Source: Calocera cornea HHB12733 (lineage: Eukaryota; Basidiomycota; Dacrymycetes; Dacrymycetales; Dacrymycetaceae). Taken from it: a stretch of DNA of 64,000 bases. The stretch spans positions 117,459 through 181,458 of the forward strand of contig KV423965.1 of the NCBI GenBank assembly GCA_001632435.1, written 5' to 3'. Of this stretch, positions 14,043 through 38,514 are shown one piece after another. The notes below the pieces were generated by a model that had not been told where the DNA came from, searched no databases, and worked only from the letters and a program-made list of their open reading frames with translations. Position 1 is the first letter of the stretch, and each line of letters opens with the position of its first letter. The position numbers and the translations under genes are program-made.

Positions 14043-15620
14043 TCACTCGGACAACCCAGAACCGCGTCTTGCTCTCAGTACAACCTCCTCCCAGCGATCT
14101 TCTTGACCGATAAGTGGAAGAGTTCGGACTCTCAGACCGTTCCACCCTCGCAGGACGTTAAGGGCAAATGTCTGAGACTTGAACAGAACCTTCTGAGTAA
14201 CGATCTGAAGCGTACGATCGCGACTGATGGGTAGTTTGGGGTGTAGATTTTCTTCAGCGAGATTCACTTCTGTGACCGATATGATTTTCAACTTAGGGCA
14301 CTTGTTCGCTATCTCGGCTAAGCACGTTATCGATAGCCCACCGGTGGCAATGACACGCCCGCGAGTATTGCCCGTCGATTCCGCCTCCAGTTGTTCTCGG
14401 AAAGGAGAGCAGGAGTACGACCACCAGTAGCTGAAATCGCGTAAGTCAGCCCATTTCGCCGTCATCTCTTGCAATATAGCACCGTTGACACAGATCGGCC
14501 CGTCTGCCAGCCAGCCAAACCAGAATCTCTTCATTCTAATGCAGGCTTGCAGCGGCATCAGCCAGATCGTGTCGAAGGTCGGTACCTCCTCTTCGCCAGT
14601 CCTTTCGATAGCCAAGCGCAGGTCTTGAAGGTTGCGAGAGGAATGGCTCAGCCAATTGATGATGTATTTCACATGCCCTTCAATCGACAGGAGATTATCG
14701 TCCATGTGCCCGTAGATCCTCGCTGAGACTGGTCGTACGTTAATTTGCATCAAGATGTTGGCCGTGGCTGTTAAGCTTGCGCATATCTTCATCTGCTTCA
14801 CTGAAGGAAGCCAAATCGGCCTGTCATCCATAGCCGGACGGTCCAAAGCCTTGTGGCGGACGAGGACGTTGTCACGAATCGCAAGCGTACACAGGCTTTT
14901 CATGCGACCGAGAACCTTTGCGATCTTGCGATTAAAGTATACGCTAGGCAGGGTAACGTGGTAGCTTGAAGCCGGTGCTACGGTCTCTACACCCAGCACG
15001 AAGTAGCGGAGTGGATCCTGCCATGTTGCAGGATATATGCGCTCACTGTAAGTCATCTGCAGGCCCACTACCCGCGTCCGACTGTTGATGAAATACGTGG
15101 AAGGAGTCAGCCCCCAGGGCGAGGACGTTGTAATGCTGATCGCGATGCTGTTGCTGAAAATAGTCGAGTGCTGGGACAGGGTCGATAAGCTGTTTAGTCG
15201 CCTTATTGCGTCGCCAAAAGCAAGCTCGTCCTCTTCGTCGTTAAGCACGATCTCGACATCTCGAACAGCGGTCGCGTAGGAGAGATAGCGAGCTCCTTGC
15301 TATTACAAGATGGTCAGAAGAGTCGTTCAGTGTTCACAACGAACCTTACGGACAGGCATAGATACCGGGAGATCGAGTACATCAGCTATATGCAGCAGCA
15401 TCTTGAGATCTAACGTCTTCCATAATGATTTCTCTGCAACATCAAATGTCGACCCAGACAGCCTCAAATTCAGTAAACTTGCATCACATCCCATGCTTGT
15501 CAGCCATTCGCATATCTCTGCCTTCAGCTCTAGCACAGTGAATAACCGATGCATGATCTCTTTGTACCAGAACGAAGGTATTCGACACGGTGGTTTTGGG
15601 ACAACCAAGGCGCGTGTCAT
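14043..15620 (-). CDS. F-box-like protein with leucine-rich C-terminal region
   Basis: Two exons are supported. The first reads from ATG at 15620 or, more likely for an F-box start, from the internal ATG at 15554 (MHRLFTVLELKAEICEWL, then CDASLLNLRLSGSTFD and KSLWKTLDL). This pattern matches fungal F-box-like domains, in which a hydrophobic helix pair recruits SCF ubiquitin ligase. An intron of about 60 bases (GTTCGT..AATAG, roughly 15276-15337) joins PVRK to QGARYLSYATAV in frame. The second exon runs open for about 400 residues to the stop at 14043 and carries irregular leucine-rich segments (NLQDLRLAIE, KCPKLKIISV). These proteins are abundant and fast-evolving in Agaricomycetes. The gene starts only 135-200 bases from the divergent gene at 15755. 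Confidence 0.65.
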
Positions 15621-15754
15621 GCGGAAGCTTTTGCAATGCGTCTGTCCCGCGCGGATGGAGCGTCACCCTCACCCCGCGATAAGGCCAGCATCCTCCTCCA
15701 CCCAACAGTACTTCGCACTACCCTCTGATCGCATCTCACTCCTCATATTCTCTT

Positions 15755-18085: not shown

Positions 18086-18458
18086 TCACAGCCGGACGCC
18101 TGGGAGCAATTCCCATTTCATATGCCATCATTGCCGATGTGTACATAGTTCTGCCTTTCACTTATGTCGTTCGTCGTTACCGGTCCCCACTTTTTTCAGA
18201 ATGTTATGATCATGTGTCGCTTCCCTCGTCTATTATCGAGGCAACATTCAGCTATTGTCTCAGACATTCAGCTACGGCCATTCAGCTACGGCCTCTCAAG
18301 CTGGAGGACAAAGTGCTTCGCCATGCAGTCGTAGTACCGTATGCATTCACGCACGTGGAGACGGTGAATCTACATAGAATGGCATTAAATGATAGAGAAC
18401 CTCTCGATGCCAGCTCATCAGGCAGGCTATGTACATCGACGGGCGAGGGCGCAGCGCG
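18086..18458. other. Non-coding gap with inverted copies of the TAGCTGAA core
   Basis: At 18243-18291 three copies of CATTCAGCTA occur within 50 bases, reverse-complementary to the array at 13279-13530. No gene is seen here. Confidence 0.5.
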
Positions 18459-19200
18459 CTACAAGACCCTTTTCACTGTCTGGATCTTTTGCTTCAGCGC
18501 ATCGATCTCCCCTTGCTGGCGGGTCATTGTTGCCTCCAACTCATCAAACTTGCGCTGAACCCAATCAGTATCCATTTCTGCCGCTTCGTCACTGCCGTCA
18601 TTCATGCCAGTGATCAGCGGCAATAAGTCTTCGAGTCTAAGCTGAATAGTGCGGGATCTGCTTCTCTGTAGATGAATCGGCTTGTCAGCATGCGAGAGAT
18701 CTTGTTTCATCATCTTCGTACCTTCGTTCGCTTGCGAATTGCACCACGCGTGGCGTTATTCCCGTGGGTCACAGAAGGACCAGCGACCGGCCGGCGACCA
18801 TCACGCGTGTTGTAGATCCTGTCTGATACGGAGAAACGACCCAACTCCTGTGGCGCTGGCCCGTGAACTGTATGCTGTATATTATCTTCCTGGTGGGAGG
18901 CGGCCAGTTGGCTCTTATCGTGGGAGGCGTTCTCCAAAGGCTGTGCGGGAAGGACATGAGCGGATCAGCCAGATCCACGTCCGATTGATCCTTCTCACCG
19001 TCTCCGCCGTTCCCATCTCCGTTTCATCTTCATCCCCGCCGTCGATGTAGTTCATCCAGTCTCTTTCTGTCCAGCTATCCCAGATCTGTCGCACGTGTTA
19101 GTGCATACAGCCTCGATCTGTCTCCATTGGCGCAGCCGGCACCTTTTCGCCCTGATATTCGGCGACGGGATCAGTCGGGGGACCTTGTCCATCTTCGGTT
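18459..19200 (-). CDS. Small basic/coiled-coil protein, unknown function
   Basis: Built from splice logic. An exon with KIWDSWTERDWMNYIDGG ends before GTGAGA (about 19007). After a 74-base intron ending CGCACAG comes PLENASHDKSQLAA through to a basic RGAIRKRTK. A second intron (GTACGA..CTACAG) joins this to RSRSRTIQLRLEDLLPLI and a coiled-coil tail (KFDELEATMTRQQGEID) ending at 18459. The junctions hold frame with no stops. The basic RKRTKRSRSR junction could be a nuclear localisation signal. The 5' end beyond about 19200 is unresolved, although TDPVAEYQGEK near 19150 joins in frame. No family is recognised. It lies between an orphan gene and the integrase on the opposite strand. Confidence 0.5.
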
Positions 19201-19713
19201 GATCCTTCTCACCTTCGTCACCTTTCCCAGCGCGCGTTCTTCTCCCTGATGCCCGTCAATCACGCGTTCCCCCGTCGAAGGGGACGCCTTCTGTCACACG
19301 ACTAGGGTGTCGGCGCATATAGTTGACGTGTGTTCCATTGGGGCGCGACGCACCTCATTCGACGGACGGCTCATGGTCGCGGCAACGCTGGGTTCATTCT
19401 CCTTATGAGAAGGATTGCCGGATGGTTCTGGAGTAGAAGGCGGTAACATCGGATGAGGTCGTTGTCAATCGATGATCGTGGCCCAGGCACTGCATGTGGG
19501 AGGGCAGCGGCGCTTTTATGGGCGTCGGAATGAGTGATTGCTTCCGGCCGCGCGTGCCGGGATGCAGAAGGGATGACGGCGCGGACTCACTGCGCAATGG
19601 CCCATACATAATTGATGGGCCCCAGTGGAGTCAGTCGGCCAGTACCTAGTATTGTACTGTTCCCATTCTGTGTGCTTCAAATCACAACTCTTGTCCCCTT
19701 TCAGTCCTCGAAA
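19201..19713. other. Upstream region of the integrase gene
   Basis: May include unresolved 5' exons of the minus-strand coiled-coil gene. No other feature is supported. Confidence 0.35.
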
Positions 19714-21428
19714 ATGGCGTCTGTACATGCATCGCCTCTCCTCGACCATAATGAAGTGACTGCGCTTGCCGCTTTGGAGCAGTACGAGCGGCTGGAGCAG
19801 ATCGTCGTTCTCGCTGTACGTGTTGACGCAGGGGATCAGATTGCCTTAGAACGAGTACGCTGTCAAGTCATTGCCTTCTGGGAGAATGTTCGACCTGTAA
19901 GCAGTATCTTCTTTCTTCCTCCTTGGGTTGGCTTGATTGAACCTCCCTTGCTTAGTTATTCCGCCTCTTATCTGCTCAGACTGCATCGGTCGTCCAAGGC
20001 AATCTTCAAGATATGCTTGTGCAACTAGACCATGCGATGGTACGCGCGCTCGATAACATCCCAAGATCAATTCCACAAGTCCTCAAGAAGATATCTAAAT
20101 CCACATCTGGACGACCGCGCTTTTCGATCGATCCTGTCATTCTTGACTCTCTGTCGCGATGGACGGGGAACGCAGGTGCAGCTCGTGCGCTTGGCGTGTC
20201 AGCGCGGACTATACGTCGACACTTGTTGGAGGAAGGACTGCGGCAGCCGGGTTTACCGCCATGTAATGCGGTTAGCGACTCCGATGGGCTTGTAGAGGTG
20301 CGCTGGGCTGGACGCCGTCCAGCCCCTCTCGCGCTGTCTGACGACGAGTTGGACCATATTGCTCTACAGTGGCGCACGGACTTTCCAGACAATGGGTTTC
20401 GAATTTTCAATGGCTATCTTACGAGTCTTGGCCTCTATGTACCTCTGCAGAGACAGAAGGACGCCTTACGACGGATCGACCTGGTGCCACGCACGTTCGA
20501 TCGCACTGCCATCCCTCGCCGGCCGTATAAGGTCGCCGGCCCAAATTCCCTCTGGCACCATGATGGCCAGCATGGTTGCGTCAGATGGAAGATGTTTATC
20601 CATGCCTTCATTGACGGATTCTCTCGCTGTGTTCTCGCCATACGTGTCAGCACGAACAATAGGGCCGATACGGTCGCCAACGTCTTTCATTCTGCTCGTC
20701 AACTGTTCGGCGTTCCGTCCCGTGTTCGCGGTGACCATGGAGGAGAGAACGTTCGTGTCGCAGAATGGATGCTTCAGCATCGTGGCCCTCATCGTGGCTC
20801 CTACATTTGGGGTCGCTCAGTACACAATACACGCATCGAGCGCCTATGGGTCGATGTCACCAACTCATTTGGTCGCAAATGGTCAAACTTCTTCTACAGT
20901 CTTGAGACCAATCACGGTCTTAATCCTCTTAACGATGATCACATCTGGCTCTTACAATGGCTCTTCCTCTCCGATATGAACAACGATGCGCTCACATTCC
21001 AGAATCAATGGAACTACCATACCCTCGCGTTGGACGGTCGAAATCAGCGACCGGTGGTGCTTTTCCTCGTCGGCTGCATCCAGCTTGGCGCAAGAGGGAT
21101 CGATTTGCAGACCCAAGATGACGAAGAATATGGACGAGATCCACCAGGCTTCGGAGTTGAGCATGATCGCGGGCCGGCACAGTCACAAGACAACGATCTC
21201 TCCAACTCCGGCTTCGGAGAAGTCCTGGACACCGGGTATGATAATGGAGATCAGATACCTTCTCGGCTAAATGTTGTTGACCCGGTACCGTCAATATGTC
21301 CCCTCCGACCTGAGCAGCTACGCGTGCTGTCCGAGGCTTTGGAGGGTCAGTTCACCTCAACGAACTCCATCACGCTCACCGAAAGGTGGAGACGTGGTAT
21401 TTCCATTTGTGCCCGGTTTAACAGGTAG
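19714..21428 (+). CDS. DDE integrase/transposase (IS3-like catalytic core)
   Basis: Two exons, 19714-19896 and 19956-21428, give 551 residues in frame. A helix-turn-helix like segment (GNAAARALG-type, read as GNAGAARALGVSARTIRRHL) lies at about residues 130-155. The catalytic core follows: first Asp in LWHHDGQHG (residue 264), second Asp in VRGDHGGEN (321) and Glu in NTRIERLW (356), giving D-56-D-34-E spacing as in retroviral and IS3-type integrases. IDGFSR after the first Asp is typical of a widespread eukaryotic group of such proteins. The tail is acidic. The enzyme would bind DNA ends and catalyse strand transfer in the nucleus. All three acidic residues are present and no frame break is seen, so it may be active. 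No reverse transcriptase is nearby, which argues for a DNA transposon rather than a retroelement. The start was chosen at MASVHASPLL, in frame with the splice at GTAAGC. Confidence 0.85.
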
Positions 21429-22206
21429 CTTCCACGAGTAGGGTCAGCCATATACCTGGTACAGACACGGCTATGTGATTCATTGATGTACATTCGTAGA
21501 GACAGATATGCGATTCATTTACTGCACCGAGATACGGTAATCATAATTAGTTACTCGCTCTTGACTGGCACTGCTCTGGATAACATCATTTGCCCTCACC
21601 TTTCATGCATAGCGGAATGATTCTGCTATGGCCCTCTAAGGTCTTCGTTGATGTTGTGAAGTGCTCTGCTTCCCACTATGCCTGCTTGAGTGGTGTACCT
21701 GAAAGATACCGCTCTGAGTCGTTCTCTTAGTCTCCTTGTACCCACATCTCCTCGCGGAATAGAGTCCTCTCCTGTCCATTAAATTGACTGGACGACACGT
21801 CACTTACGGTGGCCGGACTCGTGAGGAGCCCGAAGTAGGCAATCCGCCACACAAGTCCGTCGGAATTGCGGCATCTCGGCAAGCCGCGCATCTAGGGAGC
21901 TGTCCGCCGGACGCGCCCCTTTTTGGCCATCAGGTGCAGCGACCTACCTTCTCAGAACACGCCTCCCCTCAACGCGACCAAGCTGCTTCCTATCGGGTCA
22001 ATCTACGTGCGGCGCAGGCGACATCGAACAGCTCATCTGCGTTCCTATACAAGCAAGGAACGCTGCTGTTGCGCACGTGATTGACATATACTGTACACAC
22101 CGACTTCTTGTACCTTCGCCCGCGTCGCGTCTGCCTCTGTGGCGGTGCCTGTCAATCCTTCTACCCTGAACTGGCCTCTCGTCATTTCGTTTCCCAAGAC
22201 CCTTAC
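21429..22206. other. Intergenic, contains a palindrome related to the helicase-element ends
   Basis: No gene. An imperfect hairpin is at 21609-21629. C/T-rich promoter-like sequence precedes the gene at 22207. Confidence 0.5.
21609..21629. repeat. Hairpin ATAGCGGAAT..ATTCTGCTAT
   Basis: The arms ATAGCGGAAT and ATTCTGCTAT nearly match the hairpins in the terminal repeats at 26.5 and 34.7-35.0 kb. It lies 181 bases after the integrase stop codon. Confidence 0.6.
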
Positions 22207-23989
22207 ATGGCGAACTCGGCGCGTGCGACTGGCACCTCGGTCAATATGGAACCTGCGAAACTCTCCTCTGTTGCTGTACCTATAGCCCGAGCAAACCGGC
22301 TCCTTGAAATGCTCGTCGGAACGAGCGCCAAGGTGAGTGTTTTGAGTGGCGAACGAAGTATATATTGACCGCCAAATTATTCGCAGGACCGCCTGGCTCA
22401 GCTGAAGTCTCTGGGAGCCGCTTCAGAAGACTCTTTCTTGAGCAAAGCCTGGTCTGTCTTCCTCGAAGGGCCCATCACACAGTTCGACAAACTGTAATGA
22501 ATGAATTACTCCTTTGCCTTCCTCATACTAATACAGCGTCCTAGTTTTCTTACGATCGATACCGACAACCCGGATACAGCTGCAGATACCCTTCGGACGA
22601 CCCGAGCCGGGACGGACTCCGTCGTACTTGATGGTGTTCCGTTCCGACAGAAGGATAAGGAGTCTAAGAAGCGGATCCGCAAGGAAGCTCGCGCTTCGGG
22701 GTCTTCCCCAGCGCTACTGGACCTTTACGAACACGTAGAGAGAGACGTGCTCGGCGCTGCCCAGAGGATGTCTCACATCTACGAAGTGTTGGGTAAGTAT
22801 GATGTCGCATCCACTTATGCCGTTCGCTTACGCCATCGTATCCCAGTTTCCTACCACTTCGACGGATCGCCCCTCCTCCATGTCGTCGATGTCCTCGAAT
22901 CTCTGGTCGTGACGGTCTGCAATGCGAAGCAGTTGTCACCGTCGGCTGGTTATCGCACCAAGATGGAACCACGGATGTGGTTCGCTGCTGCTGTTACCGA
23001 TAAGGACCGGAAGATCGTCAGCCTCGGAGAGTTGCTCGGAAACTTGGAACCAGATTCGGAAGCGCCTGCGAGAATATCTTTCTGCGGAACTGCAGCCGCG
23101 CCGGGCAAGACGACGGATCAGCACGACCGAGACTTGAAGGACGCCGTCCGAGCTCTGCACAGTGAAGAGCTCGCGAGAGTAATTGGTGCCGACGAGGTCC
23201 AATTCATCAAAGAGGCTGTCAAGGACTTGATCAGCTTCTCTTTGCGTCACGAGCCATACAACGGCATCCACGACCTCTCAGCTCAGAAGGACAACGGCGT
23301 CGGCACGTGTGCGGAGTTCAAGACCTTCCTCGGGTGGGTCTAATCTTCATATATTATTGGACGTGACTGACTTGACTATCAGCCTGGCAATTTGGCTTGC
23401 GAGAGGGGGAAACGTCACGCACTGGAAAGAATGTACAGTGTGGTTTATGTGTGTCGATGTCCAGATTGTGGACCACCTCTATATGCTTGCAGACAAGACG
23501 AAGGGCGACGCGGCCGCGGTACATCACGAGGCGATCAACTGCGTATGCACCCACGGGGTGGCCATGTGCCTCGTCTGCCGTTTGACGCTCTCGTGCCTTT
23601 GCTGGAAGTATCCTGCCTTATTACAAGTCAACATTCTCCACTGGGATCACCGCCAACAAGGTTACGTTCGACCATGGCTGTTCGAGCGGAGCGAGTTGGT
23701 CGCATATCTTGCGAAGTGGAGACCCCGGGTGACTGAGCAGTCAGATGTCGGTGATCACGACCATCCAATGCGTGGCAAAGGAGAAGCTCAAGATATCGAG
23801 GATCGCCCAGCCGCAGAACGCGGAGAAGAGACAGGAGCGGTGGCGGCAGCAGGGGGCACAGAGGACACAGGAGCGGTGGCGGCAGTGAGAGGCACAGAGG
23901 ACACAGGAGCGGGGGATGCGGCGGCTCAGAGGAAGCTGAGGAAAAAAATGATGAATGCTGAGAGAAGGAAAAAGGTCCAGAGAGAATGA
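22207..23989 (+). CDS. Hypothetical protein with repetitive, basic C-terminus
   Basis: Exons 22207-22332, 22387-22493, 22545-22792, 22847-23333 and 23383-23989 join in frame with GT..AG introns of 48-54 bases. The start MANSARATGTS was chosen because exon phases close from it. The middle exons encode a helical domain (LYEHVERDVLGAAQRM, LHSEELARVIGADEVQFIKE), and the last contains several Cys and His (CVCTHGVAMCLVCRL). The tail has two to three copies of a GGTEDTGAVAA motif and ends in lysine/arginine-rich sequence (RKLRKKMMNAERRKKVQ). No family is recognised. The gene is convergent with the next gene, the stops being only 36 bases apart. Confidence 0.6.
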
Positions 23990-24024
23990 CTGGGATAGAT
24001 ATGTACATGATTTGCAGCGGCGGT

Positions 24025-26221
24025 TCATAAGGTGTCCGGTCGGCTCGGCCTTTGGAAGCCGAACCTACGCAAGGCAGCGTCCTTTCCCTTGGCAGTGTCG
24101 AATTGTAGATTGCTTTCATCCAGTGCTCGCGCCAAATCGACATGAAGCTGGTCTCCGTCTAAAGTGCAGCACGGATCATCGTCCATATCGTCCGGATGGC
24201 CAAGTTTCTCGCCAGGGAACACGGTGTACGTTTGGACGGCCCATTCATCGACTCCGTCACCTTCTTCTATACGGTAGAGAAGGTCATACCCTTCGAACCC
24301 AATAGCGGCGAACACGACGTTTGCCGTCGGGGCGTACGCCACGGGCCATGGGAATCCGGGAACCCGCAGTCCCTTCACCAAGGCTTCGAAACCGCCTCTG
24401 GCGAAGCTGAAAAATTGTGGGTAGACGTAAGCGATGTTCACTTCACAATCCTCTGGGAAGCGGTCCACGGTAAACGAGCCTGGGGAGGGCATTCCACGGC
24501 GGAGGGAGGCGCGTGGATACTGTCTCATAGCATTTGCCCATTTCTTATTGGGATTTCTAATCAGTATATGGCATATATGTGAACTAAATGCAACACGCAC
24601 CACGACAAGCTTGATATCCGCACTGTCAAGGTCTTCCACACTCTTCGTAGCCCATGGGGGACCTGACGGTTCACCAAGAGGCTCCGTGGAGATCCGTGCT
24701 AAACGTTGAGGAGCGCCTCCACGACTTGCATCTTTGGACGTATCATCGTGTCTTCGTTGGCTGGCGTCGATCGTCGCCGCGAGCTTCTTCGTTGTAAGTA
24801 GGTAAACCGCAACGGAAAATCTTTGCGCGATCAAAAGCTCGTCGGCATTGCAGGCCGCAATGACGTCGCAATGAAGAAGGTCGCTATCACTGACTATCGG
24901 CTCGGCCGGAACGGCAGCAGTAGATGCTTCGCCCTCGCTGCCGGTGAGTTGCAGCTGCGGGCTTCAAAAGACGTGACTGTTCCCGAATGATGATGAACGC
25001 GTTGCACTTTCAACGCTATGCTGCACCCAGACAACGCGTCGATTGTAGCGATCAATATTCAAGGCTGAAATATACTGGTCCTGTGCGATCGCCTCTTGCC
25101 AGATTGGTTTGAGGAGATATCGTTCATCCTCAGTCGCGGTTTCAGAGAGGTCATAAGCGACGACGCCGTGTGCGTTTCTCGCCGCGATGATGCCGAGTGT
25201 TGAGGTCGCCGTAGCTGTGAGTGTCGTCGGAGATAGAGGCGACAATGCCACAGACCACACCTTGTGAGCGACCTGCAGTGGAAATGAGGTCACAGGTTCG
25301 AGGATTTGCGGTTCCGCCTCGAGTGCTGCTGCTGCTGTGTTGATTGCGGCCACAGACAACACAGACACCATCCGGGAACTGGCGACGATTAAGCGGTCTC
25401 CGAAAAAGTCGGCGGCAAGAACCGCGTCCTACACCAACGGTTTAACCTCTATGAAAGGAGAAGATGTGGATGACACGCACCTCTAGCTCAAATTGCAGGT
25501 TCGTGTATCTCCGAGTTGACCAGTCGTAAGCATACAAGTCCACATCGCCATCGTATATGCCGTGAATGGACCATGTCCCATTGTAAGCCATCGTCGCTGC
25601 GACTTTGTTTCGCGTGCCGGTACATGTAAGTCCGGTGGAGTCCAGCTCAAGCCTGTAAGACACGGGGTCCTGCGGAATAACGCCATAGCTGCTCTCGAGT
25701 GTCCGGTCCGAAATAACATCCTCGTAAGTGACGATGAAGCTCACAGCTCCAGAATCAGACGCGAAAACAGCACCAGAACAAGCCGCGTAGCCCACCCGGT
25801 CGCCTTCGTCGGGTCGCCAACGAGATATCTCATGGAGCGACTGATTTTCGAGGGATGTATGGATTAGCGTTACGTTCCCGTCCGACGTGGCCCGAGCCAA
25901 GTACTTGTCCACAGGCTGGCTCCAAGTAATCTGCCCCGCGGGTGGTGGTGGAACACGGAGAAGGTCGAAGATACGTTCTGATGTAGGCTCGACCGCCGCA
26001 AAACTGGGGTCGTGGGTATGTGATTCTCGTATGTCGGGTGTAGAAAGCGAAGTAGAAGCCGTCAAAGGCGGTAGATCATCTTCAGAGTATGCCCGGTCTC
26101 TTTGAGGGTGGTTCAAGGGAGACAGATGGAGGCGTGCTCTCTTGTGCTTTCGACCTACGGCGTAATGCCCCTTGATAGTTTCATGTCGAGATCGCTTCGA
26201 CACCGAACGAGTTGCTGACAT
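24025..26221 (-). CDS. Hypothetical protein, possible beta-propeller
   Basis: Starts MSATRSVSKRSRHETIKGHY at 26221 with a basic N-terminus, then strand-rich repeats (KYLARATSDGNVTLI, NGTWSIHGIYDGDVDLYAYD, KVWSVALSPLSPTTLTA, GVVAYDLSE) suggestive of WD-like blades, though WD dipeptides are lacking. An intron (GTGCGT..GTGTAG) links FELE to DAVLAADFFG. A TGA at 24964 would end the frame, but a 72-base phase-0 intron (GTGCAG..CGCAG, about 24962-25033) removes it and joins VVW to LQLTGSEGE, continuing to the stop at 24025. Another intron probably lies near 24550-24600. If that 72-base intron is not used, the gene carries a nonsense codon. No function can be assigned. Confidence 0.5.
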
Positions 26222-26536
26222 TCTGCCTCGTTATCTAATTGGCGATCGCCGGCTTGCTAGTAGCCTCCTTGGAGAACGTATGCGACGCCCGGGCGACCGT
26301 GAGAGATGAGGGTTTCTGAGACGAGGGGCAGCAGGTGGACAGCTCTCTCTGTGTGCTCCGCGGTTGTCCGTGAGGGGCTTCGGAACCAGACACGGGCGCG
26401 TCAGCGGTGGAGTGGCCATATCATAGGAGCTCAGGCGGGCTCAAATTGCTTTGGTTCTTACATTTGCTTCCGTACACGCACCACTCGGCCGAACCTGAGC
26501 CGCTTCTGAGACGCTGCTTACTAATGGAGCTAGGCG
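26222..26536. other. Gap between hypothetical gene and element terminus
   Basis: No gene seen. 5' region of the minus-strand gene ending at 24025. Confidence 0.4.
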
Positions 26537-26817
26537 ATCGCCGCGCGCGATGAATAGCAGAAACATTCCGCTATTCCCCTAAACTGGGCAGCGATGAGAA
26601 AATCTCATTAATGTCCGCCTGCGCCCATCGTGCCACAACGGACTACCTGTCGCCGCGAGACGAATAGCGGAAACATTCCGCTATTCAGTGAACTCGGCAC
26701 CAATGAGAAGATCTCATCAATCTCTGCCCGCATCCACTCATTATGCTCATACGGATTACCTATCGCGGCGCGACGAATACAACAGCTGACACGTTGCGCT
26801 ATTCACCTGGTCAGTAA
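26537..26817 (+). repeat. Left terminal inverted repeat with three hairpins
   Basis: Hairpins start at 26552, 26662 and 26774 (spacing 110 and 112). The two outer ones have arms GAATAGCRGAA / TTCCGCTATTC around a 3-base loop; the inner one is diverged. Between them lie conserved blocks such as GAGAAAATCTCAT and CGCCCATCGTGCC. The repeat ends inward at GGTCAGTAA (26809-26817). Confidence 0.85.
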
Positions 26818-27252
26818 TGGATGCGTTGCTGTTTATGAATATCAATGCATGCGGACTCGCAACATAGGATAAATTAGACATTCAGGAAGCGCTCCTCTCA
26901 CACACAGGGAAAATTGCTTCCTCAGACTGACTATTGTCGGAAGCAGGAATCACGAGCCCTCGAACTGAACAGATTTCCTGTGGAGACAGTTATTGCTTTC
27001 GGGCAGCACGAGCGGTCGATACAGGAGGATGTCCGGGTGGTGAGATCAACCTGGATGCAGCTGGTGTCAGTGTAGACCGCGCCCAGAGACGGCAAATTGT
27101 AAGGCACTGAATCAGCTTGGAATATCGCACACGGGGACAGCATGAGTACTCATAGTCACGCACCTGCGGAGCGCGATTATGAGCTAGTCGAGAGTTTCCA
27201 ACTTGGAATCAAATGTAATAACCCTCTTGTTTGTGTATACCTGCACTTGGGG

Positions 27253-30200
27253 TCATACACCGGCCATCGACCCTAGAAAGGGGTAACGCACTCGAGTTGG
27301 CTCAAAGTGTAGAACTTGAAGGCCCTTTGGACTTGTCGCACGCGAGAGGGCAACGTATGCTTGCCCTACAATTTGATGAGCATTGACCCATCCCGTATCA
27401 TAATCTTCGGGAGTTTCACCTGCTTCGAAAATTTTCTTCAGGTCGACAATCACCTTATGGTAGGTCCCTCCCTGCACCTTGTGAATGGTCATAGCCCATG
27501 CAAGTTGCAACGGTATCTGTCCGATCGTGAGCTTAAAGCCATGTAGAATGACGGGTACATGCCTGCTTTCTAGAAGCGGACCATCTGTCACCGCCGGATT
27601 GAAGATCCCAAGTCTCGTAGTCCACTAGCTCCTGCCGGACACCGTCGTTCGTCCGGAAATTGACGACTGGAAGAAGCATATCTGGTGCAGCGGGAACGAC
27701 ATCTCCGGTCTTCCTGTTCAAGTCTGGCCGTATAGCCCGGTAGTCGTTCCTTTGACGAGCTGCCCACTCGGCCCTCGTGTGGAAACCCACTACGATCCCC
27801 ATGGTCCCGTTCACGAGATATGGATCAGGAAAATGCCGATTAGAAATGAGCATTACCTGGGCTCCCTTGCAGAGCTGCAGCTTAGCAAGGCCAAAAGCGC
27901 CGCCTTTGCGCTCCCGCGCAGACAGAGTTCGACGATCGCCAAAATCTTGGGAGGTATAGGTGTATACATGCTTCTCCTTAGCCCAAAGGCGTTTGGTGTT
28001 CGATATTCGAACCTCCTTGCGAGTGGCGAACCTACGGCCAGTATCACAAAGCCAGTCAAACAGCTAGGCTAGCACTCACAATTCGATCGGCTCGATCCCG
28101 CCAATCCCCGGGAGCGGTCGGGACAACTCGCGGAACTTCTCTGCACTTGCTGCGCCGACGCATCCCACCCTTGCCTCGTTGAGCATGTCAATGAACTCTA
28201 ATACGATCCGTGTCAGTGATATCAGCGTCGCCTTGGAGAGATATCTAACCTTGCTCTTTTTGCCGGTGAACGCGTGTCAATTTCCACGCTTCTGGTAAAG
28301 CCGCTGCCCACCAGTGGGACTCGAATGCAAAATATACCTTCTCTCCCTCATCCGCGATCGGCGGGAGCTGAAAGAAGTCGCCGCATACAATCAGCTACAG
28401 CAACAAGCGCATGATATGTCAGTATGACAGTCACGAATATTCAACTTCGTCCCACCTGCAAGCCCCCAAATGGACGCTGATTGTTCCGTAGACGTTTGCC
28501 GAGTTCGTCGAGCTTGCCAAAGAGTTCTGCCCTGACCATTGAAACTGCAACAGGATGAGCATGGCCTCACCGAAGATTGCGTCGAATATCTCACTTTCAT
28601 CGATGATGAGAACCTTAACACCCCGCCAGCGCTTTAACGGCTCTTCTCTTGTGCTGATGGCGTCTGCCAACGCTCGCGCGGAGTCAATACCCAGGCCTAT
28701 CGCAGCCCAGGAATGCAACGTCGATCCGCCGATGATGCTCGCGGCTGTTGCAGTCGGAGCAGTGACGGCTACTGCATAGGGCTCGTTCGAGTACCGCTGC
28801 TTCATTGCCTTGATGATTTTCTTCAGGACATGCGTCTTTCCGGTGCCTGAAAGAAGAGGTCATCAAACAAAATTGTTATGTTACGGGAATGGTTCGCCTG
28901 ACCTGCTGCACCGGTGAAAAAGAGGCTGCGACCCTGCATCACCCGTCGCATAATCTCCCTTTGCCCTGGGGAGAGTGCGTCCTTCTGCTCCAGGTTTGGT
29001 GCCTTGTGAAGAATGGGCAGTACTCGCTGAGCTGCCTTTGTGACAAGCGGTGCTGTTGTTGCGGTTGTCTTCTCCAAAGCGGGTGGTTTGACTGAAGTTT
29101 CTTCTAAGCGGCGTCGGCCGTCTGACAGCTTGACCGGAAGTGCGGGAGGTTGATCTGTTGTCCGCGATTGTGGTGGTTCAACGGTTCTATCTCGAGGATC
29201 TAGGCGATGCTTGTTGAATGACGTGACAAGCGATGGCGCAGTATTAGGTGGGACTTCAGTACAGCCTGCGCTATGCTGATCGACGGGCGATCGTCCTGCA
29301 TTGATATCGAAAGGGGATTGTGCCGCAGCTTTGCCCTGCACATTGACGGCCGTCTGCTGGAGCGCAGGTTGAAAGGCGGGCAGTGAGCGGTTCACTGTGG
29401 AGACGGAGTGAGCCTGCGCGGACTGAACAGGTTCTGGACCGCTCCGAGGAGGACTGGAAGTAGAACGAATGACCACGTTGGCAGGTTTGGAAATATACTT
29501 TCGGTTGGGTTGTTGGATGTTCACATCGTGTGAACTGGAGGCAGCAGAGGCAGCAATTGCCAATCGCTGTAATTCACGTGTCGGTCGGGACGGAGACGTC
29601 AGCGTGACCGCTCGATCTTTGACGTCCTTTCGCTCGTCCTGTGCAAGAGGCTGAGGCGAGGACGATGAGGGCGGATGTGGTGGCTGAGACGCTGCAGTAA
29701 CCAGCTCGACGGAGACAGGTGGTGGATGGCTTGGTGGAGGGCTGGGCTTAGAACGCACCAGCACCCTTACTGGTTTCAATTGTCGTTGACGGCCTGGTGA
29801 GCGTAGTTTCCGATCGTCACCTGATGCGTCGAGAGACCTCGTCGAGGGCGATGGTGATGCTGCAACCTGCGGAGCAGAGAGCGGAGAGGTGGCCGCCAGC
29901 ATTCCCAGTGGCTCGCGCGGTGGAGAGGGAGGAGTGAGTTGAACCTGGCGAGCCTGAATGTCCTCTCGCTCGGCCTGTGGAGAAGGCCGAGGCGAGGACG
30001 ATGAGGGCGGATGAAATGGCTCAGACGCTGCAGTAACCAGCTCGGCGGAGACAGGCGGTGGATGGCATGGTGGAGGGCTGGGCGTGGAACGCACCAGCAC
30101 CCTTACTGGTTTCAATTGTCGTTGACGGCCTGGTGGGCGTAGTTTCCGATTGTCACCTGATACATCGAGAGACGTCGTCGAGGGCGATGGTGATGCTGCA

Positions 30201-31281
30201 ACCTGCGGAGCAGAGAGCGAAGAGGTGGCCGCCAGCATTCCGAGTGGCTCGCGCGGTGAAGAGGGAGGGGTGAGTTGAACCTGGCGAGCCTGAATGTCCT
30301 CTCGCTCGTCCTGTGGAGAAGGCCGAGGCGAGGACGATGAGGGCGGATGTAATGGCTCAGACGCTGCAGTAACCAGCTCGGCGGAGACAGGTGGTGGAGG
30401 GCTTGGTGGAGGGCTGGGCGTGGAACGCACCAGCACCCTTACTGGTTTCAATTGTCGTTGATGGCCTGATGAGAGGGAGTTCGGGTAGTCTGGTAGAGTT
30501 CAGTTGATGAGGATGACAAGAAACTGTGGATGGGCGGGTACTAACTTGAGATATTCCCACAGAGAGGAGGTACGCTTGGCTCCTGGGAAACAGCACCAGC
30601 AGTATGCAGCGATGAAAGGGTGTCATATGCGCGAAGGGTGGACTGAGGATTGTCCACGAGCTGAGCGCGCGAGTCCGGTCGGGCCGTGAACGGGCTGGGA
30701 GATCGAGATGGCGGGCTGTGTGTCTGATCTCGAGGGACAGCAAAGGCAATACTCGCAGGCCGGGCAACTTCATCTTGATCCCAATGGTCAGACGCGACTG
30801 GTTCTACTTTGCGCTGGGCAGGACTTGACGTGGTGCTCGAATGGCTTGCAGCGGTGGAGCGAGGCGAGTTACCATCGGCGAGATGGGTGCCATTCCGAAT
30901 CGGACTGCGAGTCGGCGAGTCCACTACCGTAGACCGTGCCTGTTCGAGCCTTGCGTCGGGGAGGAGAGAGTTGAAGACATGTCGAGACCTAAGCAAGACA
31001 GCCCGAGTACGCTTTTGCTGAGCGATTCTGAGATTTAGATGGCGAAGTGTCCCGGAGGGCGACCAGTTGCGACCGCTCAGCGTCTCCCGCAATAAAGCTT
31101 CTCGCTGCTCCTCTGGGCACACAGTTATCGGCAGAGGGAGATCGTCATCGCCAGGCCACCCATGACTTGCGAGGGGAGGCAAGCCAGACTGAGCGCTCGT
31201 ATTTGTCGGGACACCGATGTCTTCCCCTGGCCAGGCACGCAAGGGCACCGTGTCCGTGTCCGTGGTCCGAATGAGGAGCAT
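27253..31281 (-). CDS. Pif1-type DNA helicase with long repetitive N-terminus
   Basis: 5'-to-3' superfamily 1B DNA helicase. Starts [12 protein letters not shown] at 31281. Supported exons include 30546-31281, 28903-30465, 28595-28846, 28456-28544 and one starting at 28394, then further exons to the stop at 27253. Motifs appear once introns are removed: Walker A GAAGTGKT (split by the intron 28847-28902), motif Ia APTATAA, motif II IDEISMV (split by the intron 28545-28594), motif [12 protein letters not shown], motif [11 protein letters not shown] and motif [11 protein letters not shown]. All the core motifs are intact, so it is probably active. The N-terminal half is disordered, Ser/Pro-rich, with a 112-residue block repeated three times (about 29690-30465). 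Family members unwind replication forks and G-quadruplexes. Here the gene sits between inverted repeats, so an element-borne replication role is inferred. A host PIF1 is the alternative. Confidence 0.85.
29690..30465 (-). repeat. 336-bp in-frame tandem repeat in the helicase gene
   Basis: The block starting [10 protein letters not shown] recurs at a 336-base period (anchor CTTACTGGTTTCAATTG at 30438, 30102 and 29766). The first two copies are nearly identical; the third diverges after about 60 residues. The period is a multiple of three. Confidence 0.85.
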
Positions 31282-31587
31282 GAAAGACAGTTAGATGATG
31301 CGAAGGGTTGGAGTGGACGTCATGATCATAATTTGGCATATAGAGGCGCATATAATGAGGTCTGCGAAACGAAAAAGCAGAGACAGCGTAGTCGTGTACC
31401 GATAAGGCCGTCGAAAGGAGAGATGGAGTCGGAAGCAGCGACGCCGCGCGATGTGCATGCACTCTTGAGGCGCGCTGTCAATGTACCGACAACACCTACA
31501 TAGCGCGAAGGCTCGTCCGACGACGATCACCGGCAGCACTGGATGCTGCTTTCATGACTCTGATGCACTTACACCTTATTCCACACG
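31282..31587. promoter_or_regulatory. Shared divergent promoter of the element's two genes
   Basis: 306 bases separate the two start codons. No coding exon is supported here. Co-regulation is inferred from geometry only. Confidence 0.45.
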
Positions 31588-34500
31588 ATGATCCCGTCAG
31601 AACAAGCTTTGTCCGAGCTGCGAACGCTGTCGAAGAGCAAATGGGAGGCGAAGGCGGACTGGGTGAAAAGTTGGGCAACAAGCATGCCGGGGATAGTAGA
31701 TCGCCTATTGGATCTGCTATATGCTGAGAAAATGCTACCCAGAAGAGGATCAGAGCAGGATGTATGCGGGATGGACATTGAAAAAGGAGCACAACAAATG
31801 GAAACTCTGGCGACAGTGCTGGTAAGCCCACATGACAGCGCCCTTCGTCCTGCACGCTGACCATGCTCTAATAGAACCCCGTGCTGCAGCTATGGTATTA
31901 TGCCGGTCTCGGGAGTACACTACCGGAGACAGTCATCGTGCAGGTGGAGCGCTTTGTTCGCATAGCGCAGTTCCTGGACGAAGCGGATCAATATCCCGTG
32001 CTGCATGGCGAGAAGAGTATCGACTTCCATTTCTTCTGAACCCCAGACGAATGGCGTCAAGCATACTCCGTCCTCAGCAGCATAAGCAACGTCGACTTCC
32101 CATCAATGCCCGATGACATCGGACCGAGAGAGGGAATACTCGGAATACTTATGGACGTTGACGAACACACGATGGAGACAGCGTGGGTGGGTTGGGAGAG
32201 TCGTCTTCGGATTCTGCATGGGGACTTTTGGGAAGCGATTTTCCGTATGATTGGACCACCTCTGCGACTCGAAATCTCGCAGATCGGGGATGCAAGAGCG
32301 TTCACAACGCTGACCGACAGTATATGGGTGCGCGGTGTTTTTCGATTTGTACAACGAGATCTGATATTGTGCTAGTCGCTCGTCGACCAGTCCGCAACGG
32401 CGATGATGATCGGCGAATGGACGGGCCGGCTCCAGACGATATTTCTTCAGCATGCCCTGTACTCAAGAGATCTCACGTGGTGGTTCGCTCTTCGGCCGGC
32501 GGGAAATATCCTCGTGGCAGAATACATGCCCAGGACAATGTACCATTACGCCTTCGGATTGGCACCGTGGCTCTGGTCAATAGCTCCGGTGAACGTGCGC
32601 GAACGGTTCAAACCAAACAAGTGGTGGGAAGCGACTTCGTCATACAGGACCTCGTACATCCAGGAATGTTTGTACATCGCGTTCGGCATTGAGCTCATCG
32701 ATGCGGTAATGCCAAATGGCAAATGGTTCAAAGACGACGATCCTAGAGCTATGTGGTGGTATGTAAATTCGCGCTGCGACGTATGGGTATGTTGGAATAC
32801 TACTTTGGTCGGCGTCAAGTGTCTGACTCGGGAAATTTTCCAGTGTCGTTACCTGTTGCAATGCTATCTGCACCGCGTCCCCATACACGAAAGGCTCACC
32901 GGAGCACTTTTGGTTTTTTTGGACCAGATTACGGATCTGATTTCCGACATACCGGAGCTGACCATCCCGATACCTGCGGACTTGCTACCGGTACAGCTAT
33001 TACCAAAGCGCGTTCTAGGCCGATGTCTGAGCGACGTCCGCGGGCTGCAGCCCCGCCGGGCGAACCACCTGATAACGAAATACTGGAACGGACAATTCGA
33101 GTTCCTTCACGACAGGTTTGAAAAGTCTGCAAATGAAGACGCCGTACGGCGGTACTCCAAATCAATCGTGAGCGATGACTTTCAGCAATAAATCTTTGAG
33201 AGGCTGAACAGCGGAGCAGGGATCGCTCTTCGCCAGCTTTCGCGTCGACGCCTTAATGAGCTGTTCATCTGAGGTCTTTGCCAAGGCCGTCGAGCTGATT
33301 AATGGTCTCTATATGTTCGCCGAGTTATGCCCAGCTGTGTCAAGTGGTCTTCCCGACGTTTCGCTAATACCGCCATCACTCCTCCAGCCGCACGTACAAC
33401 GCCTGGACAGTGCTTATGTGACCCGACTCGAAGAAATGAAGCGAGAGATTGCGGCCTCCAAGACGCGGCTGGAGTTGAATGGATCAGTAGGAGAACACGC
33501 TTCACAACAGTTCTATGGTCCGGTGACGACCTTCGCTTCCGGCAATAGACCTTCGGTGGACCAGCCAGACTCTATGCGCATGGACGATTATGTGATGCAT
33601 GAGGTTGACGAGGACGGTGGGCTGCCAAGCCTCTCCTTGGGGACTGTTGACAATGAGATCGCGGTCGACGGGGGTGGATGGCCGACTACCTCAAGACACG
33701 AGCTCGCCGTTTCGAATTCAGCGGATGAGATCGATAAAGATGATGCAGAGCCAGCACAAAATGCAGCGACACAAAAGGCGCCAACGAAGGCAGACCATCG
33801 ACTATCAGTTCGCACGATCATCATAGATGCGGACGTCAAACATGACTGTGACTACCTCGTGCCACTGGTAACCGTGAACCTTATCTCTGTTCTAAATGAT
33901 CCTCGACGCCAGCTGCACAGCTTCTTCTCGACAGGACCGTTTGATTCGACAATGATTGTGCGTTTGAAAACGTACAAAAATAACGAAACTCTCAAATCCT
34001 ACCGGCCCGAGTATACCAACCGTGGCCATCGCCATATTGAACCACTGCGTATTCCTTTGTCGGAGCTAACCTTGGAGCTCCTGCAGAAGGTGGGATTCGT
34101 CGTGGCTGTATGCAAAGGTGGTCTTGAAATTGAGGCAAGTCTGGTCTATTAAGCAGAGCGAGCGTATTTGAGGTCATCTGCAGGTGATGTGGGGAATCTA
34201 TCGATGCCAGACATGTCAACAAGCACATGAGAGCACGATATCGCAGGATATCTGGTTTATGATCTGCTGGCGGTTCAGAGGCCATCCTTGCTCTGTGTGC
34301 TTTTTGAGAAACCACACATGCACCGAAAGGAACCAATGGTGTCGTTCAAGTACGTGATGAGTTGAATCAAGCAGAACTTCAAACTGATTTGTCTTTAGTT
34401 ACGCCTGCAGTTCATTGCTCGCCTCAGTTACCTCTTGACAAATCGCTTTTACCACTGCGATCTCAGGTGTTTCAGTTCCTGAAAGACGCGTTCAAAATCG

Positions 34501-34619
34501 ACCATGACCCACCGCTGTCGCAGAGCGAGCGCCAAGCGCATGAGAGTGCTGCCAGGAAGCGGAAGAGGGAGGCGAGCCAGGCGGACATGGTTGCGCTCAA
34601 GAAGCAGAAGACGGAATAA
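31588..34619 (+). CDS. Orphan 916-residue protein with Cys-rich module and basic tail
   Basis: Seven exons close in frame: 31588-31821, 31875-32016, 32047-32327, 32376-33167, 33220-34134, 34184-34349 and 34399-34619 (2751 bases). The N-terminal 450 residues are ordered, Trp-rich and helical (LTWWFALRPAGNIL, WEATSSYRTSYIQECLYIAF). An acidic disordered linker follows, then a region with KTYKNNETLKSY. Residues 796-841 hold CQTC, then HPCSVC, HTC and WC, a likely zinc-binding module. The C-terminus is basic (RKRKREAS, LKKQK), a probable nuclear signal. One intron is GC-AG (GAG/GCAAGT at 34135). Another (32017-32046) is only 30 bases; if it is not spliced, TGA at 32036 ends the frame. No known transposase signature is recognised. 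Being the only partner of the helicase inside the repeats, it is the best candidate for the end-binding or recombinase protein, by inference. Confidence 0.7.
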
Positions 34620-34734
34620 AGAGAAGCATGTGCGACAAGTAGCCTAACAATGACCGTGCTTAATAGAACACATGTTCGACTGTATACATACCGTTTCTCG
34701 TGGGCCCGGACCGACTGGTGGGTATTCGAAGATG

Positions 34735-35011
34735 TTACTGACCGAATTGACGTCAATAGCGGAATGTTTCTGCTATTCGTCGCGCCGCGACAGACCATCC
34801 GAATCGGCAGGATGGGCGCAGGTGCAGATTAATATGAGCTTCTCCTCAGTGCCGAGCTCAGCTGAATAGCGGAATGTTTCCGCTATTGGTTGCGCCGCGA
34901 CAGGTAGTCCGTTGTGGCACGATGGGCGCAGGCGGACATTCATGAGATTTTCTCACCGCCGCCGACTTTAGGGGAATAGCGGAATGTTTCCGCTATTCAG
35001 CGGGCGGCGAT
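34735..35011 (-). repeat. Right terminal inverted repeat with three hairpins
   Basis: Reverse complement of the left repeat. Hairpins at 34754-34778, 34864-34887 and 34974-34998 have spacing 110 and 110. The stretch CCTGCGCCCATCGTGCC and its continuation to the neighbouring hairpin is almost identical in both ends. Confidence 0.85.
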
Positions 35012-35297
35012 AGACTCGGCGTATTGTCTCTGCTGACTGCTTGCGCTGAGACACCGTGTATGAAGTCAGAACGAGTGTAAACAGCGACAGCAAGATCCTT
35101 GATCTTGCGCACTGTGGGTTATCGGTGCTGGACATGCACAATGGATTCAACGGATCTCGTGCCCGTTTCTACTTTACACTTTTTAATACAGGTTACGATA
35201 GGGATGAAGCAAGACGTTGAAGCCGTCGGACGGGTATCTCCTTGTCCTGATCTTGGCAATCCTGTAGGGAGTTGGACAGCATGATATCATCGGCAGC

Positions 35298-36790
35298 TCA
35301 CGTATATGCAATCTGGCTACATCCTACGTCAACAGAAGGCTGAGAAGGCAAAAAGCTACTCACCAGTCCACAAGAAAATACAGTGACGGTCACGCTGATA
35401 CCGATGTAAGGGCTGGACGGGGCAGCCTTGACTGGGTGGTGATGATGTCCCAGTTTTCCTGTCCGTCTGCATGGTCTTGATACCTTGGAATAAGAAGTGA
35501 GAAGCCGCAGAGAAAAACGATTGATCGAGTCCTCACCAGTTTCGGAGGTCGGTTTGTACAGGATCAGCATCGTCATAATGAACAGCAGTTTCACCTGATC
35601 TAGTACGCAGACAGGGTCCAAGGGAGAAGTCGGTTACGACTCCCTTGACCGCAACCACCTTCCCCTTGCGCGCGAGAAACTGTTCCCCAAATCCATCGAA
35701 CGCGCGAAGCTGAATCCAAGCACAAGATTTATCAACCAGCCAAATTCCACCAGGTGGTATAGAAGGCTTCTGTGTGATGGATCAGCAAGAGGCGATATAA
35801 TGAGCCAGTGTTGCCCACATGAGAATGATTGGTCCTGTCCTGAGCTTCATTGTGTTTCGATGCCTTCCTGCTTCTGATCGGAACATCTCCCGGATCCCCC
35901 ACAATACCCAATATATCTGAGGCTTGGCGTTAACCATGATCCTACCAGTATACCAAAATGACGGACCGACTGACTGGCCCTTCTGCATGTGTTTGATACT
36001 GTCGATCGGCTTGAAGGAAAAGTAGACCAGGGGAATGTTTGGACTGTTAGCGAGCTGAACCATTGGTCAGTGCTGTGTTGATGGGTCCTAAGACAGGCGT
36101 ACTGTCTTGAACTTGGTTTTGCCATCACAAAGCAAACGAAAGTTGTCTCTGTTCCCACGGTTGGAGGGTCCTGCGATATCGAGGACAGTTGCGCCCCAAA
36201 GGAGATAAATCTAAAACGGGTGAAGGATCAAGAATATTTCACGGGTAAGGAACTAGAAATGCGCACGCCGTTCAACGTGAGATTCTCTCCGATATCCGCA
36301 GCCTCGTCGCAAGCCATGGCGATCATCTCCCCCTTGGGGAGAGTCAGCAGTAGATTTGAGACAGACGAGATGACCGCACAGTTGAATCATGCACGACTAG
36401 CTGCAGAGTCTCCTTCGTCACCCGTGTCGATCTATTCCGCCATCGGCCTCGTGGACTAATCTTCGTGACGCGTACGACGGTGCAAAACCTAGGAGTGTCA
36501 GCATTCAAGCCCAACGGACCTGTCCTTACGTACTGTTCCGAAGCCGGGGAAAGACGGGCGATGGTTGTGTAGTCCAAGCGGGGAAATTGTCCAATATACT
36601 GTGGCGAGGCGACTGGGGGGCGATACGCCGGAAGGTCCTGGGGTGGGAATACATCTTCATGCCGCCAAGGCTCGGGGTGACCAAGAACGGGTCCAGGTGG
36701 ACCAATGAGTTCGAGCTCCAGCACAGTGAGAATGCTGGCTGCAGGTTGAGCACGATCGAAAACGGGTAGCAGTATATATGCTTACATGCA
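35298..36790 (-). CDS. Hypothetical protein, exon structure unresolved
   Basis: Several minus-strand stretches have protein character: LGHPEPWRHEDVFPPQDLPAY near 36660-36600, EMIAMACDEAADIGENLTL near 36330-36280, IYLLWGATVLDIAGPSNRG near 36200-36140, NSPNIPLVYFSFKPIDSIK near 36050-35990, WIQLRAFDGFGEQFL near 35720-35680, and a C-terminal hydrophobic segment ending at 35298. GT..AG introns of about 50-70 bases fit between several. The start could not be fixed: candidate upstream exons (36782-37072) do not join in frame. No family is recognised. It lies 287 bases from the right end of the helicase element. Confidence 0.4.
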
Positions 36791-38514
36791 GCCGGTCACA
36801 GGCGACACTTTCCTCGATACTGAGGAGAGCTTCACTAAAACTCCATCGTACGGGCGCCTCCCACGACTCAAACAGTGAGCTCGTCGACTCAACCGAGTGC
36901 GTATGTAGTTGCTGCCGTCGCTTAGAAAACACCTACCCGGGCTAGTCAGTTTGGAGACCACTACACAGCGCAGACACGACTCACAAGTCATCCGATGGGA
37001 ATATAAGACGTCCTGATGGACCTCGAGCTCTGACGAGGCACAACAATTGGAATATACACTGATGGATCTCATTGTCTTGCAGAAGGCGGAAGCAGCCTCG
37101 ATGAGTGAGTGGAGCGTGAGACATAAATTCGATCTGAATCAGGGGGGAGTGGTCGTCCCAATGGAAGATTCGGCGCGCGATCGGCTGGCGCCACCTGACT
37201 CAGCCGACGGGACCCCCGCCGCGTTTCGTAAGCTTCCTTGATGGACCCCAGAGGTCGCGAAGGCCGTGCTAACCGTACCGATGGAATTGGAAACAAAAAT
37301 AAGGTGCTACATATATCAAAGAATATGTGCGTGTATATGCAATCAAGCAACGAATATAATGTGGAAAAGAGCATAACTAGGAATAGGGGGATTTGAGAAG
37401 TGGAAATTTCGAGTAGATCGGCAGGAGATGGAAGAATGCCGAAGCCGGGATGATTGAGTGCGGCAAGGCTCGTGGAGAGCGACTGCGCCATCGCGGATGC
37501 TGCAGGACCCGTGAGGGACGACTGATGCCTCAATGAGGACACTGTCAGAAGACTGACGACACGTGTATTTTGAATGCCCCGCTCCGTCAGTGAGGTTTTG
37601 TCCCAAACGTTACCTCATACGCGTTCAATCCCTGCCATACTATCTCCTGGTCACCACTCCCCTCTCACACCCATTTTCCCACACCCTTACGGCCGCGAAA
37701 CTCGTACAATGGCAGCATGTCTTCCCTCGGCGCCGTTCTCCACTGTCGTAAGTAGTGCCAAGGTGATGAGAACGCGGCACAGGTCGATGGCGAGTCCCAA
37801 GTCCCACGGCTAGACCGCTGGTGACAGGTGGCACAACAGACCTGATGAGCACCGAACTTCGCCTACCAGATTGGACTGTTTGAGGAGATGTCGGCGGTAC
37901 AGAAGCGAGTCTGTAGTTCGAGTTCGGGGAGACGGGGGGCATTGATGGGGCCGTAGACGCGGCACGCTCGGGGAGTTGTGTGGTTCTGTGCATAGTGCGT
38001 TTCTGCGTCTTCATCCATGGTATCAGATTTGCGCTGACACGGCTTTTGTGGCAGTGGATAATATGCCTTCCACGCGAGGGTGATTCACACGAAGCTTGTA
38101 CTTCAACAAATGTGTCTGCTACCGATACAAGATGCTCTGGCTTGTCGGCCGGTGTAACCCTACGGCTACTAGCTGCTCTCACTCATATCTGCCAATATGC
38201 CACGTATTCTTGTCAAAGGGGACATCAGGGCCTACTGCTGAGAGGCGGAAGTCTTAGAGGTGTGAACGAGGCCGTGGGAGGGCTGAGACGGCTTACGTCG
38301 GTGGGGTAGTGCTTTGGGGAGCAGAGGAAAGTGCAGGGGACGAGGGTTGAAGAGGCGGCCAGGGACGAGGGTCGGCGACGTTGTCTGTTCCGCCACCGTA
38401 TAGAGAAGCGTGCCCAATACACAGCGGAAGCGACATACTGCAGATCCGTAGAAATCTGCTGATAGTCTAGTCATTAATATACCGTAATATGGCTTGAATA
38501 CGCACGGCAGGACC
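36791..38514. other. No confident gene
   Basis: Minus-strand frames at 37069-37542 and 37640-38182 are Ser/Pro/Arg-rich without recognisable domains. One has a hydrophobic run (PLFLVMLFSTLYSLLDCIY). A real but undetermined gene is possible. Confidence 0.35.

Follow-up and report, generated by a model that had tools for sequence, protein, structure and literature searches.

Elements of the IS3EU/GingerRoot superfamily are recognised by their TA..TA termini, by target-site duplications that are usually 6 bp long and by an IS3/IS481-like DDE integrase without an HHCC finger (passages of PMC10045372). Those described from rusts have TAYGG..CCRTA ends, make 6-bp duplications and carry TET/JBP and alpha-kinase genes as passengers, and fungal members with these passengers have been reported from rusts and Tuber (passages of PMC12730594). 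Here we analyse 64,000 nt of DNA from Calocera cornea HHB12733 (Basidiomycota, Dacrymycetes; contig KV423965.1, positions 117,459-181,458, assembly GCA_001632435.1), hereafter the window, in which an initial annotation, made from the letters alone, had described positions 26537-35011 as a mobile element bounded by inverted repeats, with a Pif1 helicase, an orphan partner protein and no known transposase. We find that this stretch is an internal slice of a far larger mobile element, about 30 kb long and present in multiple copies in C. cornea, and we put at roughly 0.88 the probability that it is the interior of a giant (~30-37 kb) DNA transposon with terminal inverted repeats (TIRs), an integrase and a recurrent gene set. 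All the evidence comes from one genome (32.1 Mb, 302 contigs), and the match counts given for each gene are lower bounds.

Comparison with a sister copy, C14, shows how far the element extends. Homology begins at position 8018 (8018-8710, 67%), stands at 74% DNA identity over 10406-12907, continues at 65-73% DNA identity in blocks that cover the genes for helicase and partner (from 27097) and then 35418-37619, and ends abruptly at 37619, where the right edge, read inward, is TATGAGGTAACGTTTGGGACAAAACC. The 280-bp repeats at 26537 and 35011, taken initially for the element's boundaries, are rejected as its ends because homology begins well before the left repeat and passes the right one, beyond which the stretch shared with C14 contains one more gene, encoded on the minus strand; both repeats are internal. 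The best inverted partner of the right end anywhere in the 64 kb lies at 8018, TATGAAGTAATGTATCGGACAAAACC, and matches at 22 of 27 positions (one flanking base included), the runner-up at 17 of 27. Because 26-bp TIRs, TATGA...GGACAAAACC, stand at both edges and a perfect 6-bp duplication, CGCGTT, lies directly outside each, we take the element to be 8018-37619.

The same end structure recurs at other sites. In C14 a duplication of the CCCCAC type was anticipated from the right flank before the left end had been read: position C14:24500 maps to window 10406, so that the left end was expected near C14:22100, and in the 1.5 kb fetched we found TATGACGCGATTTATGGGACAAAAC at 22040, directly preceded by CCCCAC, with window homology beginning exactly at 8018. 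This copy measures 33,736 bp. In another copy, C21, a pattern from the right flank located GCCGAG and then a TIR at C21:23989-24018, with one TIR mismatch and in agreement with the position expected from the distance between gene 1 and the end in other copies; the copy is 36.7 kb long and, like that in C14 (33.7 kb), its sequence was read in part. Four further ends, in C34, C94, C4 and C39, lie 5-8 kb from contig ends. Starting at the first T of the TIR and running as far as sequence was fetched (5,046 bp), C34 and C94 are 99.98% identical; C4 and C39 are 99.84% identical over 613 bp starting at the TIR, and the flanks are unrelated in both cases. Pairing the flanks of C34 with C4 gives GGCTTT and those of C94 with C39 gives TGCGGC (the cross-pairings give no match and 3 bp), and we infer that these are two ends each of two near-identical copies split by the assembly. 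Finally, C154:46978-47548 (L048:279-849) is a non-autonomous copy of 571 bp that has a TIR at each end.

The window, C14 and C21 elements and the C154 copy all have TATGA...TCATA at their two ends, and the single ends in C34, C94, C4 and C39 have it too; the C48 end starts TACGA. A 6-bp duplication is present in five of the six insertions whose two ends are known or paired (window, C14, C34/C4, C94/C39 and C21). Past mobility follows from the TIRs and duplications at several sites and from the near-identical copies with unrelated flanks, which point to recent movement. The assignment of the stretch to a mobile element is thereby upheld. A genome scan that allowed up to 3 mismatches found the end pattern 10 times; among the fetched loci, at up to 4 mismatches, the pattern gave one extra weak match (L018) against 4 for the reversed pattern, and this match was dropped. 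Two other end-like sequences were seen in passing: one at C76:119100, which resembles that of C154, and one, with 3 mismatches, at C71:22822-22851, where gene 1 has a match about 3 kb away (C71:18919-19780), as in known copies.

The absence of a known transposase, as initially annotated, holds within 26537-35011 and fails for the element, which encodes an rve/DDE integrase (rva_4) 5 kb to the left. This protein matches PF24764 (rva_4) with E 1.5e-59 and PF00665 (rve) with E 2.7e-9, and its nearest NCBIfam models are those of IS481 (9.1e-13) and IS3 (1.1e-3), both matches being far under the curated cut-offs. The presumed catalytic residues D203, D260 and E295 are intact in the window and conserved in the C34 copy; a helix-turn-helix was recognised by eye, a single cysteine lies ahead of the first catalytic aspartate, and there is no HHCC finger. 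The genome contains 43 matches to the integrase. An enzyme of this IS3/IS481 type would cut and join the TATGA...TCATA ends and so make the 6-bp duplication.

The two divergent genes of the stretch first described are confirmed, the Pif1 helicase on the minus strand by PF05970 (E 3.5e-12, 46.8 bits, cut-off 25.9) and the partner on the plus strand by a six-exon model. Helicase motifs were recognised by eye, Pif1_2B and UvrD_C_2 score under their cut-offs, and the genome holds 81 PIF1 matches. A 336-bp unit is repeated three times in tandem in the Pro-rich N-terminal region of the helicase gene (29582-30553; the later units 87% and 69% identical to the first over 300 nt). Three of the PIF1 loci left out of the clustering analysis below were inspected, all among the best PIF1 matches: L003 and L010 carry PIF1 and Pif1_2B, and L007 carries a partial Helitron_like_N. 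L007, L008 and L009 have nearly equal PIF1 scores and are perhaps Helitron copies; the window helicase is distant from the Helitron-like one of L007, their sole match being 38% over 76 aa of one block.

The partner gene has a Cys-rich exon and encodes a basic C-terminus, and its length is 926 codons before the stop, an in-frame TGA included, rather than 916 residues. Its intron positions are conserved in C14, and a single exon has 33 genome matches. The partner is under purifying selection (Nei-Gojobori ratio of non-synonymous to synonymous divergence, dN/dS, 0.19 with dS 1.16 over 920 codons, window against C14), and in the three paralogues where the Cys-rich module matched alone this module is its best conserved part (44-52% versus 25-33% for other segments). 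Motifs seen by eye suggest a zinc-binding nuclear protein. In protein databases, where each search scored just under 8,000 candidates, we found only two annotated fragments, both from C. cornea, and searches of PDB and Pfam with an alignment of the partner gave chance-level matches only (best E 0.43 and 0.21). Since the element has an integrase of its own, no recombinase activity need be assigned to the partner, for which this was one of the functions initially suggested; the C154 copy, which retains little beyond its ends, would fit mobilisation by the integrase acting on those ends.

The inverted repeats that flank this gene pair exist, but they are not near-identical: 26537-26806 and 34752-35011 agree at 80.7% over 275 aligned columns, with a best ungapped block of 145 nt at 92%. 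Their arms are made of units at 110-bp spacing around a palindrome, AATAGCNGAANNNTTCNGCTATT, which (at up to 4 mismatches) occurs eight times in the window, each time within the element, and in none of 20 mononucleotide shuffles. In C14, three palindromes (up to 3 mismatches) lie at the position matching the right array, and none was found to the left of the helicase within the stretch read. We regard the arrays as candidate binding sites.

To the right of the pair lies a gene for an RPA70-like protein, whose C14 and window copies score 27.5 and 29.6 bits with PF16900, both above the cut-off of 27; residues 152-388 of the C14 protein match the RPA70 chains 1jmc (E 7.3e-9) and 1fgu (E 9.4e-9). 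This gene, too, is under purifying selection (dN/dS 0.23, dS 0.90, 285 codons, window against C14, last exon omitted). Gene 1 gave no Pfam match in the two open reading frames (ORFs) tested, and gene D, a recurrent gene, none in Pfam, in NCBIfam or, among just under 8,000 candidates scored, in the protein databases. The Pfam scan covered 16 ORFs of the element, which has 137 stop-to-stop ORFs of at least 80 aa. The features are listed in the table; the limits of several genes are approximate.

Table. Features of the C. cornea element, in window coordinates
Feature	Position	Strand	Evidence or remark
Left target-site duplication CGCGTT	8012..8017	.	flank comparison
Whole giant transposon	8018..37619	.	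29,602 bp; TIRs and 6-bp target duplication; limits of C14 homology
Left TIR TATGAAGTAATGTATCGGACAAAACC	8018..8043	+	22/27 against other end; genome pattern search
Gene 1, multi-exon	8424..12907 (limits approximate)	+	C14 homology; 16 genome matches of one exon
Possible passenger gene, 418-aa ORF	14043..15299	-	ORF list; no Pfam match
Gene D, recurrent, 449-aa ORF	16736..18085	+	21 genome matches at 14 loci including own copy
rve/DDE integrase, 490 aa, D203-x56-D260-x34-E295	19956..21428	+	PF24764, PF00665
Two overlapping ORFs	22501..23989	+	ORF list; first ORF without Pfam match
Three ORFs that may be exons of a single gene, possible passenger	24025..26230	-	ORF list; one tested, no Pfam match
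Left internal palindrome array (left repeat of initial annotation)	26537..26806	+	repeat and palindrome comparison
Pif1-like helicase, several exons, Pro-rich N-terminal part	27253..31290 (5' limit approximate)	-	PF05970
Cys-rich partner	31588..34619	+	exons 31588-31821, 31875-32327, 32376-33167, 33220-34134, 34184-34349, 34399-34619
Right internal palindrome array (right repeat of initial annotation)	34742..35015	-	repeat and palindrome comparison
RPA70-like single-strand-DNA-binding protein, multi-exon	35533..37124	-	PF16900, PDB matches; just outside right repeat of initial annotation
Right TIR TATGAGGTAACGTTTGGGACAAAACC	37594..37619	-	C14 end identical
Right target-site duplication CGCGTT	37620..37625	.	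flank comparison

Outside the element, the window contains inverted copies of a transporter-like gene (51381-52432 and 53537-54634, 70% over 1.1 kb; an MFS duplicate by eye) and, to the left, two similar ORFs resembling short-chain dehydrogenases by eye (4185-5238 and 6382-7053). To the right of the C14 element (L033), a nearby host gene resembles, by eye, the urease accessory protein UreD.

The genes of the element cluster across the genome. For this analysis 33 helicase loci were picked by hand from the 81 PIF1 matches by profile range and exon pattern, and matches to the other genes were merged by hand into loci (partner 33 to 28, integrase 43 to 26, gene 1 16 to 14, gene D 21 to 14); RPA was left out of the counts because the family search (15 matches) missed the window's own gene. 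A helicase lies within 20 kb of 24 of the 28 partner loci, where a plain uniform estimate gives 1.15. The loci of the five gene types form 60 clusters, with all five types in 5 (C52, C14, C48, C120 and positions 425-455 kb of C2), four in 3, three in 4, two in 18 and one in 30, and gene order varies among copies. The two-gene clusters consist of helicase and partner in 16 of the 18 cases (e.g. C10, C25, C65, C87); the searches detected neither an rva_4 integrase nor gene 1 nor gene D in them.

Several observations weigh against a giant integrase-driven transposon with this gene set. The 16 pair-only clusters among the 60 suggest that helicase and partner may not depend on this integrase. The in-frame TGA of the window partner (32037-32039; CGC in C14) suggests that the window copy may be decaying. 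The sole non-autonomous copy, C154, has a 7-bp rather than a 6-bp duplication, and in C48 the flank-pattern test that succeeded in C21 did not find the second end. The reversed end pattern also matches once in the genome scan, so that a single weak end match is no proof. Structure predictions were unusable both for the partner (two sequences, mean pLDDT 32.6) and for gene D alone (mean pLDDT 34.9).

As for function, the Pif1-like helicase and the RPA70-like protein would most likely unwind and coat element DNA during copying or repair, serving DNA synthesis at or after transposition, and the partner probably binds element DNA, perhaps at the palindromes, where it might load or recruit the helicase. 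More tentatively, and with somewhat less than even confidence, we hypothesize a lineage that joins an IS3/IS481-type integrase with a replication set of its own, all of it predicted (Pif1 helicase, RPA70, Cys-rich loader and palindromic binding sites), that copies itself or replicates extrachromosomally, and in which the helicase-partner pair is exchangeable among integrase lineages.

An alternative that we consider unlikely is that helicase and partner form a mobile or replicative module of their own, the 8.5-kb interval being nested in the giant element or moving independently. The pair-only clusters would be expected from such a module, although integrases of diverged lineages may have escaped detection there. 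In the window the pair is flanked by palindrome arrays, and C14 homology breaks near the left one, at 27097; the right array, however, sits between blocks colinear with C14, which has similar palindromes at that place and shows none left of the helicase in the stretch read. Moreover, none of 20 fetched helicase loci of 8-10 kb has an inverted repeat of at least 30 nt, most of them being too short for both ends. Less probable still is that a DNA virus related to Polinton/Maverick elements and adintoviruses became endogenous here: the rve integrase, the 6-bp duplication, the length of about 30 kb and the many genes all fit, but capsid, packaging ATPase and polymerase domains are absent from the 16 of 137 ORFs scanned, and the ends are TATGA, not AG. 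A search with the polymerase family PF03175 gave no match, and the control genomes were likewise without one. That a host cluster (PIF1, RPA and neighbours) was spread by segmental duplication, as the ordinary host functions of helicase and RPA and the divergence of many copies might suggest, is scarcely credible, being refuted, unless all five duplications arose by chance, by the TIRs and perfect 6-bp duplications at the ends of five insertions, by near-identical copies that start exactly at the TIR amid unrelated flanks, and by a 571-bp copy that shares the ends. An expansion of the host's PIF1 gene is rejected as well.

An orphan protein family and many PIF1 genes of the genome are explained by a giant transposon of this kind. 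Among giant cargo-carrying transposons of fungi the Starships of Pezizomycotina are the best known; the present family, of 30-37 kb, is from a basidiomycete and has an integrase of quite another kind. The replication genes that it carries should be surplus to the needs of plain cut-and-paste, and it becomes directly testable whether DDE transposons can supply replication machinery themselves.

Helitrons encode a HUH Rep and a Pif1-like helicase and are not known to have TIRs or to make a target duplication, and some carry RPA genes. The element shares with them the Pif1-like helicase and, with some, an RPA gene, but it has true TIRs, a 6-bp duplication and a DDE integrase, and no Rep or Helitron domain was found in the element ORFs scanned. 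Polintons/Mavericks are large TIR elements with an rve integrase, a protein-primed DNA polymerase B and AG ends. Their duplications are 6 bp long (passages of PMC10045372), and in this respect, as in large size, TIRs and rve integrase, the element resembles them; no polymerase or capsid was recognised in it among the 16 ORFs scanned. With Starships, the giant cargo-carrying elements of fungi (PMC12134995), it shares size and cargo, but Starships use a tyrosine recombinase and belong to Pezizomycotina, whereas this element has a DDE integrase and TIRs and belongs to Basidiomycota; no tyrosine recombinase domain appeared in the general scan of ORFs, no search having been aimed at one. AcademH elements are also DNA transposons with a helicase, but they make 9-10 bp duplications (passages of PMC10045372), not 6-bp ones, and the element has an rve integrase. 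The initial annotation was thus right to set Helitrons and AcademH aside, as the TIRs, the 6-bp duplication and the rve integrase now indicate. In the mainly open-access literature searched, no element of this kind with a Pif1 helicase and RPA70 was recognised among the matches listed; in PMC12730594, 'helicase' appears once, on Helitrons, and 'replication protein' nowhere. The termini, the duplication length and the integrase fit the IS3EU/GingerRoot superfamily, a putative placement made by features: alike are the TA..TA termini, the 6-bp duplications, the IS3/IS481-like DDE integrase without an HHCC finger and the presence of passenger genes. Unlike the described members, the element is 30-37 kb long and carries a Pif1 helicase, an RPA70-like protein, the Cys-rich partner and genes 1 and D, so that, as far as our literature searches go, what is new is its size and its replication gene set.

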